From assembly GCA_903897335.1 (NCBI GenBank), contig CAIUAY010000229.1:1-55763 (forward strand): 55,763 nt of DNA, read 5' to 3'. Position numbers and translations under genes: made by a program. Under the pieces are notes generated by a model that was not told where the DNA came from, did no database searches, and saw nothing but the letters and a program-made list of their open reading frames with translations. Positions 33,349 through 54,382 of the stretch are shown in pieces; position 1 is the stretch's first letter; each line of letters begins with the position of its first letter. Origin of the DNA: an uncultured Chromatium sp. (GTDB taxonomy: Bacteria; Pseudomonadota; Gammaproteobacteria; Chromatiales; Chromatiaceae).

Positions 33349-34287
33349 TCAATGCTGGTCTTTAGATGGATGCTTCGCATGTTTCAGCACGGTTGCGGCC
33401 AGTTCATCCGGGTCGAACTTCGCCAGAAAGTCATCCGCTCCCGCCCGTTTGACCATGTCGAAATTAAACTGCCCGCTCAGGGATGAATGCAGGATCACTG
33501 GCAAATCTTTCAGTTTTCCATGTTCACGAATCCTGCGCGTCAGGGTATAGCCATCCATGCGCGGCATTTCGATATCGGCGATGACCATTTCAATTGATGC
33601 TTCGACCATGTCTGCTGCGGCAATTTCTTCCAGATAGTCGAGCGCCGCCCGTCCGTCGGAACGGGTTTCGGTGCGGAAGCCAAGCTCCAGAATCGCCCGT
33701 TCGATCTGTTTGCGCGCAACCAGTGAGTCATCGACGATCAGGATGCGGCGATCATGCGGAAGTATTTCAGCCTGTTTCTGAATGGCTTCCGAAACATCAA
33801 TCTTAAGCTGGTTGATCTGCGCAAAGACGCGCTCGACATCGATAATTTCGACCAGCTTGTGATCGACTTCGGTCACGGCGACCAGATAGCTTTCACGCTC
33901 GGTTCCACGCGGCGGTGGCTTGACGGTCTCCCAGTTGACGTTGACGATGCGATCCACGCCGGATACCCAAAATCCCTGAACCGAACGGTTGAATTCGGTG
34001 ACGATCACCTTGGCGTCGTGATCCTCTTCGGCTGGCAGGCCGGCAAAACCGATCGCCAGCGCCAGGTCGATCACGGACACTGTCCGTCCGCGAATGTTGG
34101 CGACACCACGCACGATTGGACTGGAACCCGGAAGATGGCGCAGCGTCGGTTTGGCGATGACCTCGCGCACCTTGAAAACGTTGATTCCGAACGTCTGTTT
34201 GGCACCCAGATGAAAGAGCAGCAATTCCATGCGATTCTGTCCGACCATGCGGGTGCGCTGATCGATATCGTCAATAAACTGACTCAT
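33349..34287 (-). CDS. cheV: Chemotaxis coupling protein CheV (CheW-REC)
   Basis: CheV couples receptors to CheA and may act as a phosphate sink. Residues ~17-165 are a CheW-like domain (LLLFHLGAKQTFGINVFKVREVI, VRGVANIRGRTVSVIDL). Residues ~180-305 are a response-receiver domain with the acidic pair in ILIVDDS, the phospho-acceptor Asp238 in VIADIEMPRMDGY, and a conserved lysine near the end (DFLAKFDPDEL). Length 312 aa is typical. It reads divergently from flgA and leads the cheV-cheR pair. Confidence 0.95.
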   Translation of the reverse strand: MSQFIDDIDQRTRMVGQNRMELLLFHLGAKQTFGINVFKVREVIAKPTLRHLPGSSPIVRGVANIRGRTVSVIDLALAIGFAGLPAEEDHDAKVIVTEFNRSVQGFWVSGVDRIVNVNWETVKPPPRGTERESYLVAVTEVDHKLVEIIDVERVFAQINQLKIDVSEAIQKQAEILPHDRRILIVDDSLVARKQIERAILELGFRTETRSDGRAALDYLEEIAAADMVEASIEMVIADIEMPRMDGYTLTRRIREHGKLKDLPVILHSSLSGQFNFDMVKRAGADDFLAKFDPDELAATVLKHAKHPSKDQH

Positions 34288-36734: not shown

Positions 36735-37178
36735 TCAGCGCCGTTCTGCCGCTGAATCCAGTTCAAGACGCTGACCGTGCAGACTGAAAAGCAGATCAAC
36801 CTCTGCTTCCGTCAATGCACAGCGCCTGCGGACTTCTTCACGACTGTAACCCTCCTGAATAAGCTGAATCGCCTGGGGATAAAGTCCCTCGTCGACCTCG
36901 CGCAGCCGCATCTCGCTTTGCTGTTCGGTCAGCCGCTCCAACCTGCGCCTGACTGAAGATTGCGTCTGCCCGTGACTGATCACATCCTCGGCAATCACCT
37001 TCATGGCGCCATGCAGTGCCAAGAGAGAGGTATTCTGGCGTTGGGCATCGCTTCTTATCTCCCGGATCTGGCGTCTGAGAGTCGAGACTGAGCGCAGAGC
37101 CAATACCGCCAGAATGAAGGCTAGCAACGCCAGGACGCACACTGACACGACCACACCCAACAGTAAATTCCCGTTCAT
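36735..37178 (-). CDS. DUF2802 family membrane-anchored protein
   Basis: One transmembrane helix at about 6-28 (LLGVVVSVCVLALLAFILAVLAL) is followed by a coiled coil (about 30-90) and a conserved C-terminal block: LYPQAIQLIQEGYSREEVRRRCALTEAEVDLLFSLHGQ, which resembles a small helix-turn-helix fold. This is the DUF2802 pattern; such genes regularly sit next to cheW in polar flagellar clusters of gammaproteobacteria. Function is not established. It converges on the PilZ gene with 49 bases between the stops. Confidence 0.8.
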   Translation of the reverse strand: MNGNLLLGVVVSVCVLALLAFILAVLALRSVSTLRRQIREIRSDAQRQNTSLLALHGAMKVIAEDVISHGQTQSSVRRRLERLTEQQSEMRLREVDEGLYPQAIQLIQEGYSREEVRRRCALTEAEVDLLFSLHGQRLELDSAAERR

Positions 37179-37701: not shown

Positions 37702-38184
37702 CTAATGTTCGCGAATTGCCGCCCATTCATCATCGGACAGCAGTTTATTGAGATCGACCAGGATCGTCAGTCCATCCTCGGTACTGCTGACGCCAAGAAT
37801 AAAACGGCTGGTCTGATCATTGCCGACCGCTGGCGCCGGATCGACCGCGTCTGGTGGAATCCGCACCACTTCGGCAACGGAGTCAACCAGGATGCCGACG
37901 TTCTGGTTATCGACATCAATGATCACAATCCGCGAGGCATCATCTGGCACCCGTTCCGGGAGCTGCATCCGTCGCCGCGCATCAATCACCGTCACGACAT
38001 CACCGCGCAGATTGATGATGCCCAGAATGTAATCGGGCACGCCAGGCACTGGCGCAATTTCAGTGATTTTCAGAACTTCCTGAACCTGCAAGACATCAAT
38101 GGCATAGGTCTCGTCCTCAAGACTGAAGGTGACGTAGGATGATGATGCGCCCCTGGTCTGGGCATTTGAATCGACTGCGGTCAT
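37702..38184 (-). CDS. cheW: Chemotaxis adaptor protein CheW
   Basis: CheW bridges chemoreceptors and CheA in the signalling array. The SH3-like double domain is clear: YVTFSLEDETYAIDVLQVQEVLKITEIAPVPGVPDYILGIINLRGDVVTVIDARRR. The end VDLNKLLSDDEW is also typical. Length 160 aa. A strong GAGGAAGT site precedes the ATG at 38184. It follows motD after 97 bases; in related clusters parC and parP lie in that place, but here there is no room for them. Confidence 0.96.
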   Translation of the reverse strand: MTAVDSNAQTRGASSSYVTFSLEDETYAIDVLQVQEVLKITEIAPVPGVPDYILGIINLRGDVVTVIDARRRMQLPERVPDDASRIVIIDVDNQNVGILVDSVAEVVRIPPDAVDPAPAVGNDQTSRFILGVSSTEDGLTILVDLNKLLSDDEWAAIREH

Positions 38185-38281
38185 GACTTCCTCACACTGT
38201 TGGCTGCATTGCTCGATATTGATTGGCGAAGACCAAACCGGTCTTCAATCCTCTTTTCAAACTCACCATCCATCGCAATCC

Positions 38282-39196
38282 TTAACGAATCTGGCCAACA
38301 CCCGATGCAAAGTCGCTGCGAAGCTGCTCCGGTTTGACGGTTACGTTCATTTGTGGGGGCAGGCCGGGTAACACGATCACTGAGACACGACGATTCTGTG
38401 CCCGACCACTTTCCGTTTCATTACTGGTTAACGGCTGAAACTCAGCATACCCGATCGCCACCATCTGTTTGGGATCAACTCCATTCTGTGCAAACAGGTT
38501 GACGACCGTGGCGGCGCGACCGGATGACAGCTCCCAATTGGAAGGATAGATTGAATTTTTGATCGGTAGATTATCGGTATGCCCTTCCACATGGATACGT
38601 GCATCGCGCTTCGCGAGAATTTTGGCGACATTCAGCAACACCGGACGCGCACCGGCATCCAGCGTTGCCGAGCCACTCTGAAAGAGCAGGTTTGAATTAA
38701 TCGTAATTTCAAGCCAGTAGGCTTTACGCTTAACCTGGATTTCATGATCCTGGATCAGCGAGCCAAAAGCAGATTCGATTTCGGCTGACATCTCGCTAAG
38801 TTCTTTCAGGATGCGCGCCCGCCCGACGCCATCGAATGAATCCAACGCCGACTCGACGGCGACATCCACAGGTGACAGGACATCCGCGATGGCAACCTGA
38901 TCCCGTCCTGATGCAGACTGGCTTGTGAATTCGCTTGGCACGAGCGCACGGGGCACGTCGTCATTCAGCAAATTGAGCGCCATGCTGGGGTCGCCAATCT
39001 GAATTGGATCGATTGGAACCCGTGAGCCAAACGCCTCAACCAGCGAATTGGATAACACGCGGTATTTTCCGGCATCCACGACAGACACCGCATACATGAC
39101 GACAAAAAAGGCCATCAGAAGCGTGACCAGATCCCCATAGGGGATTGCCCAGGCTTCGTGGTTCCGATGCTCTTCCCGCTGAAGTCTCCTCGCCAT
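38282..39196 (-). CDS. motD: Flagellar stator protein MotD (MotB-like)
   Basis: MotD is the peptidoglycan-anchored half of the second stator type found with polar flagella. A single N-terminal transmembrane helix carries the proton-binding Asp22 (YGDLVTLLMAFFVVMYAVS). A linker/plug region follows, and the C-terminal OmpA-like domain (about 180-290) has HVEGHTDNLPI and SSGRAATVVNLFAQNGVDPKQ...GYAEFQP for peptidoglycan binding. Length 304 aa. It is encoded 59 bases after motC. Confidence 0.94.
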   Translation of the reverse strand: MARRLQREEHRNHEAWAIPYGDLVTLLMAFFVVMYAVSVVDAGKYRVLSNSLVEAFGSRVPIDPIQIGDPSMALNLLNDDVPRALVPSEFTSQSASGRDQVAIADVLSPVDVAVESALDSFDGVGRARILKELSEMSAEIESAFGSLIQDHEIQVKRKAYWLEITINSNLLFQSGSATLDAGARPVLLNVAKILAKRDARIHVEGHTDNLPIKNSIYPSNWELSSGRAATVVNLFAQNGVDPKQMVAIGYAEFQPLTSNETESGRAQNRRVSVIVLPGLPPQMNVTVKPEQLRSDFASGVGQIR

Positions 39197-41084: not shown

Positions 41085-43211
41085 TCAGACTCCTGCCTGC
41101 GCCAAGGATCGCGCCACCCGCGAACCACGTCCGCCATATCCAGGACGCCCCATCAATCGCAGGAGTTCGGGGATATCGATAATCAGTGCAATCCCACCAT
41201 CCCCGGTAATCGTCGCGCCCGCCAACCCCGGAACGCCCTGAAGCCCACGCCCCAATGGCTTGATGACGACTTCTTCCTGACCGACCAGACCATCCACAAC
41301 CAGGCCGACCTTGCGCTGCGCCACATGCACCACGACGACATGGGCTTCGGCCTTTGGGTCGATCAGACGGTTTGGATGCAGCCAGCGGCCAATATAATAA
41401 AGTGGCAGGGCATGGCTGCGAACCATGATGGCTTCCTGATCATCGACAAAATGACTATGTGTCAGATCGAGATCGAGAATCTCCGAAACTGATGCCAACG
41501 GAATCGCAAACTGGCGTCCGTCCAGAATCACCATCAGCGCCGGCAGGATGGCCAGTGTCAGGGGCAATTTGACCATGAGCCGGGTTCCGCGCCCGACTTC
41601 CGAGTCAATCTCGACCGCCCCATTAAGCTGGGCGATGCGAGTCTTGACGACATCCATCCCCACCCCGCGCCCGGATACATCCGAGATTTCTTCCTTGGTC
41701 GAGAACCCAGCCAGAAAGATGAGATTGAAGGCATCCCGATCCGACATGCGCTCTGCCAACGTTGGCTCCAGCAGACCTTTTTCGACTGCCTTGCGGCGTA
41801 ACACGGCGGGATCCATCCCCCGTCCGTCATCCTGGATGATCAGCGAGATGTGATCGCCTTCCTGAGCCGCGCCAAGAACCACCTTCCCCTTGCGCGGCTT
41901 GCCATGCGCCTGGCGCACGTCCGGCATCTCAATGCCATGATCAACCGCGTTGCGGATCAGATGCACCAGCGGATCAGCCAGCGCCTCGACCAGGTTCTTA
42001 TCCAGATCGGTTTCTTCACCGAAGATCTCCAGATCGATTTCCTTGCCCAGACTGCGCGCCAGATCGCGCACCACGCGCGGAAAACGGCTGAAGACCTTTT
42101 TGATAGGCTGCATCCGGGTTTTCATGACCGCCGTCTGGAGATCGGCAGTCACTAGCGCCAGGGCGCCGATAGCTTTGCCCAGTTCATCATCCATGGTGCG
42201 GGTGCGCAACATGCTCATGCGGTTGCGCACCAGCACCAGTTCACCGACCAGATTCATGATTTCGTCGAGACGCTGGGTGTCGACACGCACGGATGTCTCA
42301 ACCCCGGTGTTTGCCGGGGCGTTACGTGCGCTCTTCCCGGTTATGGCGTCATCTTTGTCCGCAGGTGCCGGAGGTTGACTGACGACAGGCAGCGGCTCCC
42401 GTGCTGGCGGCGGCGTTGATGTCAACGTCGGTTCAGATGTCGGCTCAGGCTTGGATAAAGACACTGCCTCGACATCCGTCCTGACCACAGATTTGCCGTG
42501 GAGCTGGTCAAGCAGTGCGTCGAACTCTTCAGGCGTGATCAGATCACTTGATGTCGTTGTAGCGGCATCTGCCTCCTGGGGCAGCGTCGCCACCTCCGCC
42601 GCGCTCGGCTGTGGTTTCTGCGTCCCAGAAAGCGCATCCAGCAAGGCCTCGAATTCGGCTTCAGTGATGTCATCAGAGGCACTGACCGTACCCTCTGAAG
42701 CAATGGATTCAGCGTTCTTAACCGTGCTGACTGCGATGTTGTCTGGCAGTGGCTCCGACGACACCTCAGGCTCTGACGCGAGCGTGACCACTGGCGGCTC
42801 GGCTGGTCGAGGCGACATCTCGCCCGGCACTGCCAGCCGCGCCAGATCCTGAATCAGCAGTTCGGGTGCCGGCTCAGGTTCATGGCCTGATTTGAGATCC
42901 CCAAACATGACATTGAGGACATCTAGGACGCGCAGCACAGTGTCCATCAGAAAGGGTTCAATCTTGCGCTGGTTGTTGCGCAGCAGATTGAAAACGTCTT
43001 CCGCATGGTGACAGACCACGACCAATGCGTTGAGATTAAGGAAGCCTGCGCCACCCTTGATGGTGTGGAAGCTACGGAAAACCGCGTTAAGCAGATCTCG
43101 ATCCTCGGGATTCTGTTCGAGGTCGATCAACTGTTCATTGAGTGCTTCGAGCAGCTCTCCAGCTTCAACTAGAAAATCCTGGAGAATTTCATCTTGCGGA
43201 TCGATGGCCAT
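41085..43211 (-). CDS. cheA: Chemotaxis histidine kinase CheA
   Basis: CheA autophosphorylates and passes phosphate to CheY and CheB. The Hpt domain carries His49 (FRSFHTIKGGAGFLN). A long Pro/Ser/Glu-rich linker (about 108-305) replaces a folded P2 domain and contains two copies of a short motif: DITEAEFEALLDALSG (181-196) and LITPEEFDALLDQLHG (224-239). Then follow the dimerisation helices (RLDEIMNLVGELVLVRNRM), the ATPase with HLIRNAVDHGIE, DDGRGMD and GRGVGMDVVK, and a CheW-like end. Length 708 aa. The linker motifs resemble the FliM and CheZ CheY-binding ends and the array-localisation linker segments described for polar-flagellate CheA. Confidence 0.96.
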   Translation of the reverse strand: MAIDPQDEILQDFLVEAGELLEALNEQLIDLEQNPEDRDLLNAVFRSFHTIKGGAGFLNLNALVVVCHHAEDVFNLLRNNQRKIEPFLMDTVLRVLDVLNVMFGDLKSGHEPEPAPELLIQDLARLAVPGEMSPRPAEPPVVTLASEPEVSSEPLPDNIAVSTVKNAESIASEGTVSASDDITEAEFEALLDALSGTQKPQPSAAEVATLPQEADAATTTSSDLITPEEFDALLDQLHGKSVVRTDVEAVSLSKPEPTSEPTLTSTPPPAREPLPVVSQPPAPADKDDAITGKSARNAPANTGVETSVRVDTQRLDEIMNLVGELVLVRNRMSMLRTRTMDDELGKAIGALALVTADLQTAVMKTRMQPIKKVFSRFPRVVRDLARSLGKEIDLEIFGEETDLDKNLVEALADPLVHLIRNAVDHGIEMPDVRQAHGKPRKGKVVLGAAQEGDHISLIIQDDGRGMDPAVLRRKAVEKGLLEPTLAERMSDRDAFNLIFLAGFSTKEEISDVSGRGVGMDVVKTRIAQLNGAVEIDSEVGRGTRLMVKLPLTLAILPALMVILDGRQFAIPLASVSEILDLDLTHSHFVDDQEAIMVRSHALPLYYIGRWLHPNRLIDPKAEAHVVVVHVAQRKVGLVVDGLVGQEEVVIKPLGRGLQGVPGLAGATITGDGGIALIIDIPELLRLMGRPGYGGRGSRVARSLAQAGV

Positions 43212-43236: not shown

Positions 43237-43998
43237 CTAGAAACCCAGACTGGAAAGCAGCGCATCCACGTCGTCCTGTCCACTGACGACATCCGCGACC
43301 ACATCATGCGTATTGGGAACGATCGGCCCATGACTCGTCGCCACGGCCTCGGTGTCCGACGCTATCGGCTTGGCCTCCTTGCTAACCTCCATGCGGGCGC
43401 TGGACAGACGGACAAGTCCGACCAGATTCTCCTCGACCTCATGCACCAGACGGATGACGCGACGGATGATCTGCCCGGTGAGATCCTGAAAATCCTGCGC
43501 CATCATGATTTCAGACATCAATGAACGCAAATGCTCGGTTTCCTCGTTGCTGGCAAGAAAAAAATTGTCGAGCGCCCGGGCAAATTCACGGAATTCATCG
43601 AGCGAGAGTTCACGCTGACGAAAACGCTGCCAGATTTCGGTCAAGCTGGCTGATCGATCATGCAGCGATTCGGCAATCGGCATCGCTTCATCGACCGCAT
43701 TGAGCGTTCGATGGGTCGCCTGCTCGGTCATGGTGACCACATAGTTGAGACGTTCCTTGGCATCAGGAATTTCGTCCCGGGTGAGTTCGATCAGCCTGGA
43801 ATCACCGCGAAAGCTGTTTAGTGCCTCGTGCAGATCGCGTGTCAGTTTGCCGAGTTCTTCAAAGAGATCACGTTCGTAGGGGATGCGCAACTGACGGACG
43901 ACGGTGGCAGCGGCATCCTGCTGACCCGCTTCCAGATGTCTTACCAGTTGTTTCGCCAAATCGAGCTGTAATGCAGAATTTTCTTCGTCAGTGCCCAT
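43237..43998 (-). CDS. cheZ: CheY-P phosphatase CheZ
   Basis: CheZ hastens CheY-P dephosphorylation. The long helical hairpin carries the active block MMAQDFQDLTGQIIRRVIRLV with the conserved Asp and Gln. The extreme C-terminus, QDDVDALLSSLGF, is the amphipathic helix that docks on CheY. Length 253 aa, slightly longer than E. coli (214 aa). It precedes cheA by 25 bases and follows cheY after a 132-base gap with no clear promoter. Confidence 0.95.
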   Translation of the reverse strand: MGTDEENSALQLDLAKQLVRHLEAGQQDAAATVVRQLRIPYERDLFEELGKLTRDLHEALNSFRGDSRLIELTRDEIPDAKERLNYVVTMTEQATHRTLNAVDEAMPIAESLHDRSASLTEIWQRFRQRELSLDEFREFARALDNFFLASNEETEHLRSLMSEIMMAQDFQDLTGQIIRRVIRLVHEVEENLVGLVRLSSARMEVSKEAKPIASDTEAVATSHGPIVPNTHDVVADVVSGQDDVDALLSSLGF

Positions 43999-44130: not shown

Positions 44131-44520
44131 TCAGGGCGCTTCGATACGCTCAAAGATCTTGTCGATCTTCTCTTTCAGGGTCTCAGCCGTAAAGGGTTTG
44201 ACGATATAGCCGTTGACCCCTGCCTGCGCGGCTTCGACAATCTGCTCGCGCTTGGCTTCAGCCGTGACCATCAGCACTGGCAGCGTCTTCAGCGACGGCT
44301 CAGCGCGCACCGCCCGCAGCAGATCGATACCTTCCATGTTGGGCATGTTCCAGTCGGTGACGAGAAAATCGAATCCGCCATTCTTCAGCATGGGCAGCGC
44401 TGTACTGCCATCATCTGCCTCCATGGTGTTGTTGAACCCCAATTCACGCAGCAGATTTTTAATAATGCGTCTCATGGTGGAGAAATCGTCCACGATGAGT
44501 ATTTTCATGCCTTTGTCCAC
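44131..44520 (-). CDS. cheY: Chemotaxis response regulator CheY
   Basis: CheY-P binds FliM and FliN to change motor rotation. The single receiver domain has [13 protein letters not shown], phospho-acceptor Asp56 ([11 protein letters not shown]), the conserved Thr in MVTAEA and the Lys in [10 protein letters not shown]. The start is a GTG at 44520 with GGGGGT upstream and the N-terminus [10 protein letters not shown], as in vibrio and Shewanella CheY; an ATG four codons in would lack a spaced ribosome binding site. Length 129 aa. Confidence 0.96.
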
Positions 44521-53404: not shown

Positions 53405-54382
53405 CTAATGTTTGATGTATTCAGCGATCTTGATTGCATTGGAGCCGTTGGCAACGCCAAACTTGCCGCGAAAGAGCGGAATGTCCTCGACGTTGAGGAT
53501 GACGGTTTCAGGCAGGTTGACCGGAATAATGTCGCCGGCACGCATGTCCAGCAACTGTTCAACCGTCAGCGTGGCTTCAGCCAGGATCGAACTGATTTCA
53601 ACCTGTGCCGACGGGATTTCATCCTGAAGGGCGCGCAGCCAGCGCTCATCGACCCCGGAACGATCCGACTGCAAACCGGTATCAAGCTGTTCACGGATAG
53701 GCTCGATCATCGCGTAGGGCAGCGTGACATGCAGATTGCCGCCGCCGCCATCGAGTTCAATATGGAAATCGTTGACGACCACGATCTCGGTTGGACTCAC
53801 GATATTGGCGAACTGCGGATTGACTTCTGAATTAATGAATTCGAACTGCAAATGCATGACCGGTTCCCATGCTTTCTGCATGTCCTCAAAGGCCGCATCG
53901 AGCAGATTTTTGATAACGCGCAGCTCCATCGGCGTGAAATCGCGCCCCTCGATACGCGAGTAATACCGTCCATCACCACCGAAAAAATTATCCACCAGAC
54001 TGAATACTAGCTTGGGATCAAACACGAAGAGTCCAGTGCCATGCAGCGGAATTACGCGCACTAGATTCAGGCTCGTTGGCACATAGAGTCCGTGGAGATA
54101 TTCCGAGAATTTCGTGACCCGTGAGCCAATCACCGAGATTTCAGATGAACGGCGCAGCAGATTGAACAGATGGATGCGCAAGTAACGCGCAAAACGCTCA
54201 TTGATCATGTCGAGCGTCGGCATCCGTCCGCGAACGATCCGTTCCTGGGTGGCAAAGTCAAACGGTCGTGCATTGCCGTCTGCGGGAAAGGGATTGGCAT
54301 CGGTATCGATATCGCCATCGTCGACGCCATGCAGGAGCGCGTCGATTTCATCCTGGCTGAGGATATCGGTTTGCTGTGCCAT
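53405..54382 (-). CDS. fliM: Flagellar motor switch protein FliM
   Basis: FliM receives CheY-P and passes the signal to FliG. The N-terminal CheY-binding segment is intact (DILSQDEIDALLHGV, residues 6-20). A CheC-like middle domain follows (MINERFARYLRIHLFNLLRRSSEI, then FDPKLVFSLVDNFFGG), and the C-terminal SpoA domain (SSILAEATLTVEQLLDMRAGDIIPVNL) contacts FliN. Length 325 aa is standard. It starts 11 bases after the fliL stop. Confidence 0.97.
   Translation of the reverse strand: MAQQTDILSQDEIDALLHGVDDGDIDTDANPFPADGNARPFDFATQERIVRGRMPTLDMINERFARYLRIHLFNLLRRSSEISVIGSRVTKFSEYLHGLYVPTSLNLVRVIPLHGTGLFVFDPKLVFSLVDNFFGGDGRYYSRIEGRDFTPMELRVIKNLLDAAFEDMQKAWEPVMHLQFEFINSEVNPQFANIVSPTEIVVVNDFHIELDGGGGNLHVTLPYAMIEPIREQLDTGLQSDRSGVDERWLRALQDEIPSAQVEISSILAEATLTVEQLLDMRAGDIIPVNLPETVILNVEDIPLFRGKFGVANGSNAIKIAEYIKH

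Follow-up and report, generated by a model that had tools for sequence, protein, structure and literature searches.

Repeated FliM- and CheZ-like helices in the CheA linker of an uncultured Chromatium, a candidate dock for CheY in a kinase with no detectable P2 domain

We report that the flagellar CheA encoded by an uncultured Chromatium sp. carries, in the linker where a P2 domain would be expected, two copies of a short repeat that resembles the CheY-binding segments of FliM and CheZ, and that at least one copy of this repeat is kept in every flagellar-type CheA that we compared. The explanation that we favour, and consider probable, is that the repeats form a multivalent FliM/CheZ-like docking site, for CheY and perhaps also for CheB, that replaces P2 in this type of gammaproteobacterial flagellar CheA; the binding of CheY itself is what we infer. 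No description of the repeat motif was found in the open-licence papers that were searched. The whole stretch of DNA analysed, 55,763 nucleotides long, is called the window below.

The cheA gene of the window (41085-43211, minus strand) encodes a protein of 708 residues in which, from the Pfam matches and the AlphaFold2 model, P1 (the Hpt domain, residues 8-96), a linker of about residues 106-305, P3 (306-365), P4 (413-552) and P5 (558-685) follow one another. On the minus strand the gene order is fliA-cheY-cheZ-cheA-cheB-two motor genes-cheW, with cheZ at 43237-43998 and cheY, the proposed partner, at 44131-44520; cheA, cheZ and a CheW-receiver gene were identified by Pfam, cheW and FliM were also identified by search, and the other genes of the window, cheY among them, were named by eye. 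The earlier note on this DNA had stated that this CheA has no folded P2, and this is borne out in two ways. No P2 (PF07194 or PF09078) was found by Pfam at E<=1, in a scan where the Salmonella CheA, taken as the positive control, gave PF09078 at 5.3e-21, and the AlphaFold2 model contains no folded alpha/beta domain between P1 and P3. It is noted that P2 lies in the same place between P1 and P3 as the repeats and has the same role as is proposed for them, but P2 is a folded domain, whereas the window CheA has there a low-confidence linker with two predicted helices of 11 residues.

The two repeats, each of 16 residues, are DITEAEFEALLDALSG (42624-42671, minus strand, CheA residues 181-196) and LITPEEFDALLDQLHG (42495-42542, minus strand, residues 224-239), and the positions and translations given before for both are correct, as are those for the start of FliM, MAQQTDILSQDEIDALLHGV (54308-54382, minus strand), and the end of CheZ, QDDVDALLSSLGF (43240-43278, minus strand). 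The segments of the window that were taken as comparison ligands are this CheZ tail and the FliM N-terminal segment ILSQDEIDALLHGV (54323-54364, minus strand, in the ORF 53405-54382). The AlphaFold2 model was computed from 40 sequences, and most of the stretch 136-307 is predicted there with low confidence. Between residues 127 and 311 it contains two helices and no others, 184-194 and 227-237; these are the two repeats, with block pLDDT of 75 and 62-69. Both repeats contain the FliM/CheZ-type core [ED][IVF][DE]xLL. The longer pattern [LID][ST]xx[ED][FIV][DE]ALL that had been ascribed to all four segments is present in FliM and in both CheA segments but not in CheZ, which has S and G at -4 and -3 (SGQDDVDALL), and the core common to all four is only [ED][FIV][DE]ALL; among the relatives, the CheZ C-termini that were listed mostly have the form V-D-D-L-L.

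The likeness was evaluated with a profile built from FliM N-termini alone (30 loci and the window), with which the ORFs of all the loci were scored. The median score is 13.7 for 96 CheA and likewise 13.7 for 87 CheZ C-termini, as compared with 6.1 for 1305 other ORFs from which CheA, CheZ and FliM had been taken out; the window CheA scores 14.9. A score of at least 13 is reached by 68 of the 96 CheA and 59 of the 87 CheZ C-termini, and by 8 of the 1305 other ORFs, two of which resemble CheZ tails by eye. With the same profile, the linker of 94 of the 96 CheA outscores no fewer than 95% of 200 shuffled sequences of its own composition, and none of the 200 shuffles reaches the score of the window linker. 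The best match lies in the repeat with the Glu-Phe pair (the EF repeat) in 94/96. With a profile derived from CheZ, by comparison, CheA scores from 13.2 down to 5.6 and CheZ about 24-25 (a comparison of CheA with CheZ only), and since CheA thus ranks clearly below CheZ, which counts against CheY docking, the repeat is like FliM first. Three further observations concern segments of similar appearance. The N-termini of ParP (YLDALL) look FliM-like by eye and were tried as the same motif, but were set aside with 14 of them scoring 0.8-9.4. An ORF of the window near cheW (36735-37178, of the DUF2802 type by eye) holds ALTEAEVDLLFSLHG and scores 11.5. At L133:2504-2995 a 163-residue ORF beside cheA, without a match to the CheZ query, ends in the FliM/CheZ-like tail NQDEVDALLSELGL.

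In published work, EIDALL is given as the conserved site at which FliM and FliY bind CheY (PMC9126983) and the C-terminus of CheZ as a CheY-binding peptide (PMC12270135). With the FliM segment the repeats share Ser/Thr-x-x-E-hydrophobic-D/E-A-L-L as well as the profile match, while they differ from it in being internal, in occurring in 1-8 copies and in running on into D-x-L-H-G. With the CheZ peptide they share the run D/E-hydrophobic-D/E-x-L-L-x-x-L-G, while that peptide is C-terminal and single, has Val at +1 and lacks Ser/Thr at -3. A consistent difference is at +1, where FliM and CheZ have Ile or Val and the best match of 94/96 CheA has Phe, as do both repeats of the window. This counts against CheY docking, and the Phe may point to another partner or pocket. 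The [ST]xx[DE] part is a common helix cap, which also counts against a specific CheY reading.

The repeat is a constant feature of this type of CheA. A CheA-like match at E<=1e-60 is present in 169 of 274 genomes of the class. Among the 112 best places listed, which reach down to E 2.4e-102 with the window apart, 100 were taken and 12, many of them partial matches, were left; of the resulting 101 CheA, the window included, 96 are counted as the flagellar type, with L085 (truncated) and L135-L138 (distant CheA) set aside. All 96 linkers contain at least one copy of the repeat and at most eight: one copy in 10 CheA, two in 30, three in 44, four in 11 and eight in one, at a median spacing of 41 residues. 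The consensus of 247 copies, collected with Phe required, is D-[ED]-I-[TS]-[DE]-[DE]-E-F-[ED]-A-L-L-D-x-L-H-G, and in the alignment of 101 rows E229, F230, L234 and D235 of the window CheA are nearly invariant. The pattern [ILVMF][ST].[DEAQ][ED]F[ED].LL, which was devised after the repeats had been seen, occurs 191 times in 92 of the 101 CheA, and the remaining ORFs of these loci, 397,150 residues in all, do not contain it at all. At L078 the reading of the sequence gives two copies. A 1068-residue CheA frame at L101:9047-12253 (genome G033) has eight or nine. Across all bacteria the EF repeat is present in 43 of 80 named loci, the carriers including Allochromatium, Thioalkalivibrio, Marinobacter, Shewanella, Vibrio, Photobacterium and Pseudomonas; the remaining 37 hold a CheA of another kind or one that is cut.

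In another explanation the repeats are SHOCT-like, or generic capped amphipathic helices, that bind some other partner or space the linker. The ITxxEFE half of the SHOCT helix is shared with the repeats, and SHOCT (PF09851) matches 65 of the 101 CheA at E<=0.01, the best at 9.2e-11, a likeness that also tells against the CheY reading. The window CheA, however, scores 18.1 bits, under the curated cut-off of 27 bits, and matches only positions 14-27 of the 28 in the profile; moreover, since only 8 of the 1305 other ORFs come to 13 with the FliM profile, unrelated helices rarely score so high. We give this explanation only a slim chance. For SHOCT itself the function is described as unknown, the first test having given no support for oligomerisation (PMC3581485).

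The occurrence of P2 bears on the proposal that the repeats replace it. In the Pfam scan of the N-terminal parts of the 101 CheA, PF09078 was found in 1 and PF07194 was not among the 22 families listed; P. aeruginosa CheA has four repeats and no P2 at E<=1, three Vibrionaceae CheA (L192, L208 and L210) have three repeats each, and a search of three CheA of this family found no P2. Conversely, the Salmonella CheA has P2 and no EF repeat, and in one set of 10 CheA from outside the class, 8 have a Pfam P2 and 0 of these 8 the EF repeat in the first 420 residues. On the other side, the CheA of L244 (Aquificota) has neither a Pfam P2 nor the EF repeat, which counts against a repeat standing in for P2. 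In six further CheA (L230, L235, L241, L215, L218 and L247), covered by the repeat scan only, the EF repeat is absent. According to a survey, P2 is lacking in over half of CheA proteins, which have an unstructured stretch there instead (PMC10542144). The same source reports that in E. coli the removal of P2 from CheA slows phosphotransfer but does not abolish it; CheY may therefore reach P1 without any dock, which counts against the explanation.

In a second set of 10 CheA, Pfam found P2 in 0/10, and other linker segments are seen in CheA of these groups. Six Campylobacterota CheA (L209, L212, L223, L225, L243 and L251, four of which belong to the set without a Pfam P2) have one or two copies of a DYxxMSxEEVEAEIERLL-like segment, which is the clearest island of the linker there and is missing in L214. 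In an AlphaFold2 model of a Sulfurimonas CheA-receiver fusion with the EIERLL segment and a receiver, computed from six sequences and of low confidence (57.7), the segment lies inside a helix of 30 residues, and the model is not taken as evidence on docking within the chain. A DW-x-x-L/M-H/F/Y segment is common to the linkers of the betaproteobacterial CheA L238, L246, L248 and L254, all without a Pfam P2. Judged from the sequences, these segments may be independent solutions. A wider explanation can then be put forward, namely that arrays of helices mimicking FliM and CheZ are a widespread alternative to P2, through which CheY docks on the flagellar CheA in this class, that they have arisen more than once (as in Campylobacterota and in some Betaproteobacteria) and that the copy number tunes the recruitment of CheY; this we regard as possible yet doubtful.

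A different role for the repeats is suggested by Vibrio, where a segment before P3, the LID, is described as binding ParP and is said to occur only together with ParC and ParP (PMC5706961, PMC7534058), one of the two sources placing the LID after P2 (PMC7534058). The earlier note had offered array localisation through ParP as a function of the repeats, alone or beside CheY recruitment. The repeats would then be the LID itself, a handle for the AIF domain of ParP as in Vibrio, and their likeness to CheY ligands would be coincidental. The repeats of the window do lie in the corresponding region (compared as a region), since they precede P3 in the linker of a CheA of this kind; the Vibrionaceae CheA hold repeats, as given above, and at least one is present in each of the 69 CheA whose genomes, among those searched, are ParC-positive. 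But what defines the LID is that it binds ParP and that ParC and ParP accompany it, and neither protein was found in the window genome: nothing matches ParC at E<=1e-40, where a true ParC scores at least 308 bits, and the best match to ParP, at 34 bits, is the cheW of the window. Between the motor gene (38282-39196) and cheW (37702-38184) there is a gap of 97 bases (38185-38281, minus strand), where parC and parP lie in many relatives.

The searches for ParC and ParP covered 80 of the 101 genomes. Ten of the 80, the window genome among them, lack ParC, and ParP is undetected in 9 of these 10; the tenth, G179 (L068), has a ParP-like gene of 92 bits and two repeats. The ParP model found ParP in 59 of the 70 ParC-positive genomes, and because it misses some, the absence is argued also from ParC and from gene order (the motD-cheW gap). 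In the order, a CheA at E<=1e-150 is present in 55 of 79 genomes and ParC is missing in 17 of these 55. In the clade of the window ParP is undetected in 17/17 genomes and ParC in 15/17, and the mean identity to the window (the window itself taken in) is 0.81 and 0.77 for the repeats, against 0.26 elsewhere in the linker, 0.90 for P1 and 0.87 for P3-P5. At least one repeat, with the same consensus, is kept in 27/27 genomes without detected ParP; this count and the 69/69 are made without 17 unsearched loci, L085, L135-L138 and L068. With the repeats kept under strong constraint where ParP is undetected, ParP can hardly be the sole reason for them. A role with ParP only is unlikely, and the proposal of a localisation handle is weakened for the window organism, although in organisms that have ParP the repeats may serve it as an additional function. 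For the explanation by the LID with coincidental likeness to CheY ligands, we see a small chance. The one-contig genome G034 (L081), which has neither FliM nor FlhA, keeps cheY, cheZ, cheA with three repeats, parC, parP and cheW; as CheZ, ParC and ParP are all kept together with the repeats, this fits either partner. Its cheB reads as two separate ORFs. On a Photobacterium toruni plasmid (L142:4818-9390), cheY-cheZ-cheA-cheW and a CheV-like gene stand with no parC or parP alongside, and the CheA keeps one repeat. We class the repeats of the window as a putative CheY-docking variant, neither a P2 nor, in this genome, a LID, though they lie in the region of the Vibrio LID.

The CheY side is consistent with docking. 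The positions R92, Q94 and V103 (E. coli numbering) are reported to face P2 in the E. coli complex and to be changed when F6 CheY is recruited to F7 CheA (PMC7184735). The window CheY carries all three, and among 145 CheY-like ORFs, picked by regex from all the loci and possibly including non-flagellar receivers and duplicates from one genome (the named and unnamed sets seem to overlap, e.g. in L181 and the G007 locus), R92 is present in 122, Q94 in 134 and V103 in 138. In CheA without P2, another element of CheA probably meets this surface of CheY. CheY is reported to be enriched in a pull-down with P. putida CheA (PMC11978298) and to cluster with CheA in P. aeruginosa (PMC12410967), the Pseudomonas CheA examined here for P2 being that of P. 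aeruginosa. The suggestion of the earlier note that the repeats substitute for P2 gains support from the lack of P2, from a FliM-profile match equal to that of the CheZ C-termini, from the repeats being the only linker helices in the model and from the residues retained on CheY, while CheY docking itself stays at the level of a probable reading.

The repeats could instead bind another array protein with a receiver or CheW fold (the receiver of CheB or CheV, CheW, or P5), or dock within CheA and restrain P1. P2 is reported to dock CheB as well as CheY (PMC10542144), and a CheV-type gene, the CheW-receiver gene noted above, is present in the window at 33349-34287. As for docking within CheA, the low confidence of the linker around the helices in the AlphaFold2 model does not suggest a fixed place there, which is a weak point against it. 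We consider this explanation improbable.

Based on the explanation that the repeats dock CheY, the following pathway is proposed. Each copy would be an amphipathic helix, capped by Ser/Thr as judged from sequence, in the disordered linker between P1 and P3, and its place on CheY, and perhaps on the CheB receiver too, would be the alpha4-beta5-alpha5 groove, where FliM and CheZ bind. The repeats would hold unphosphorylated CheY near P1, and after the phosphotransfer CheY would be released and become available to FliM and CheZ. With several copies, each of them weak, CheY would be concentrated locally while CheY-P would not be trapped.

The repeat thus gives a specific candidate for CheY docking in kinases without P2, and one that is common to Pseudomonas, Shewanella, Vibrio and the purple sulfur bacteria. 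If the explanation is true, the motor, the phosphatase and the kinase would be linked in that their ligands compete for a single surface of CheY.
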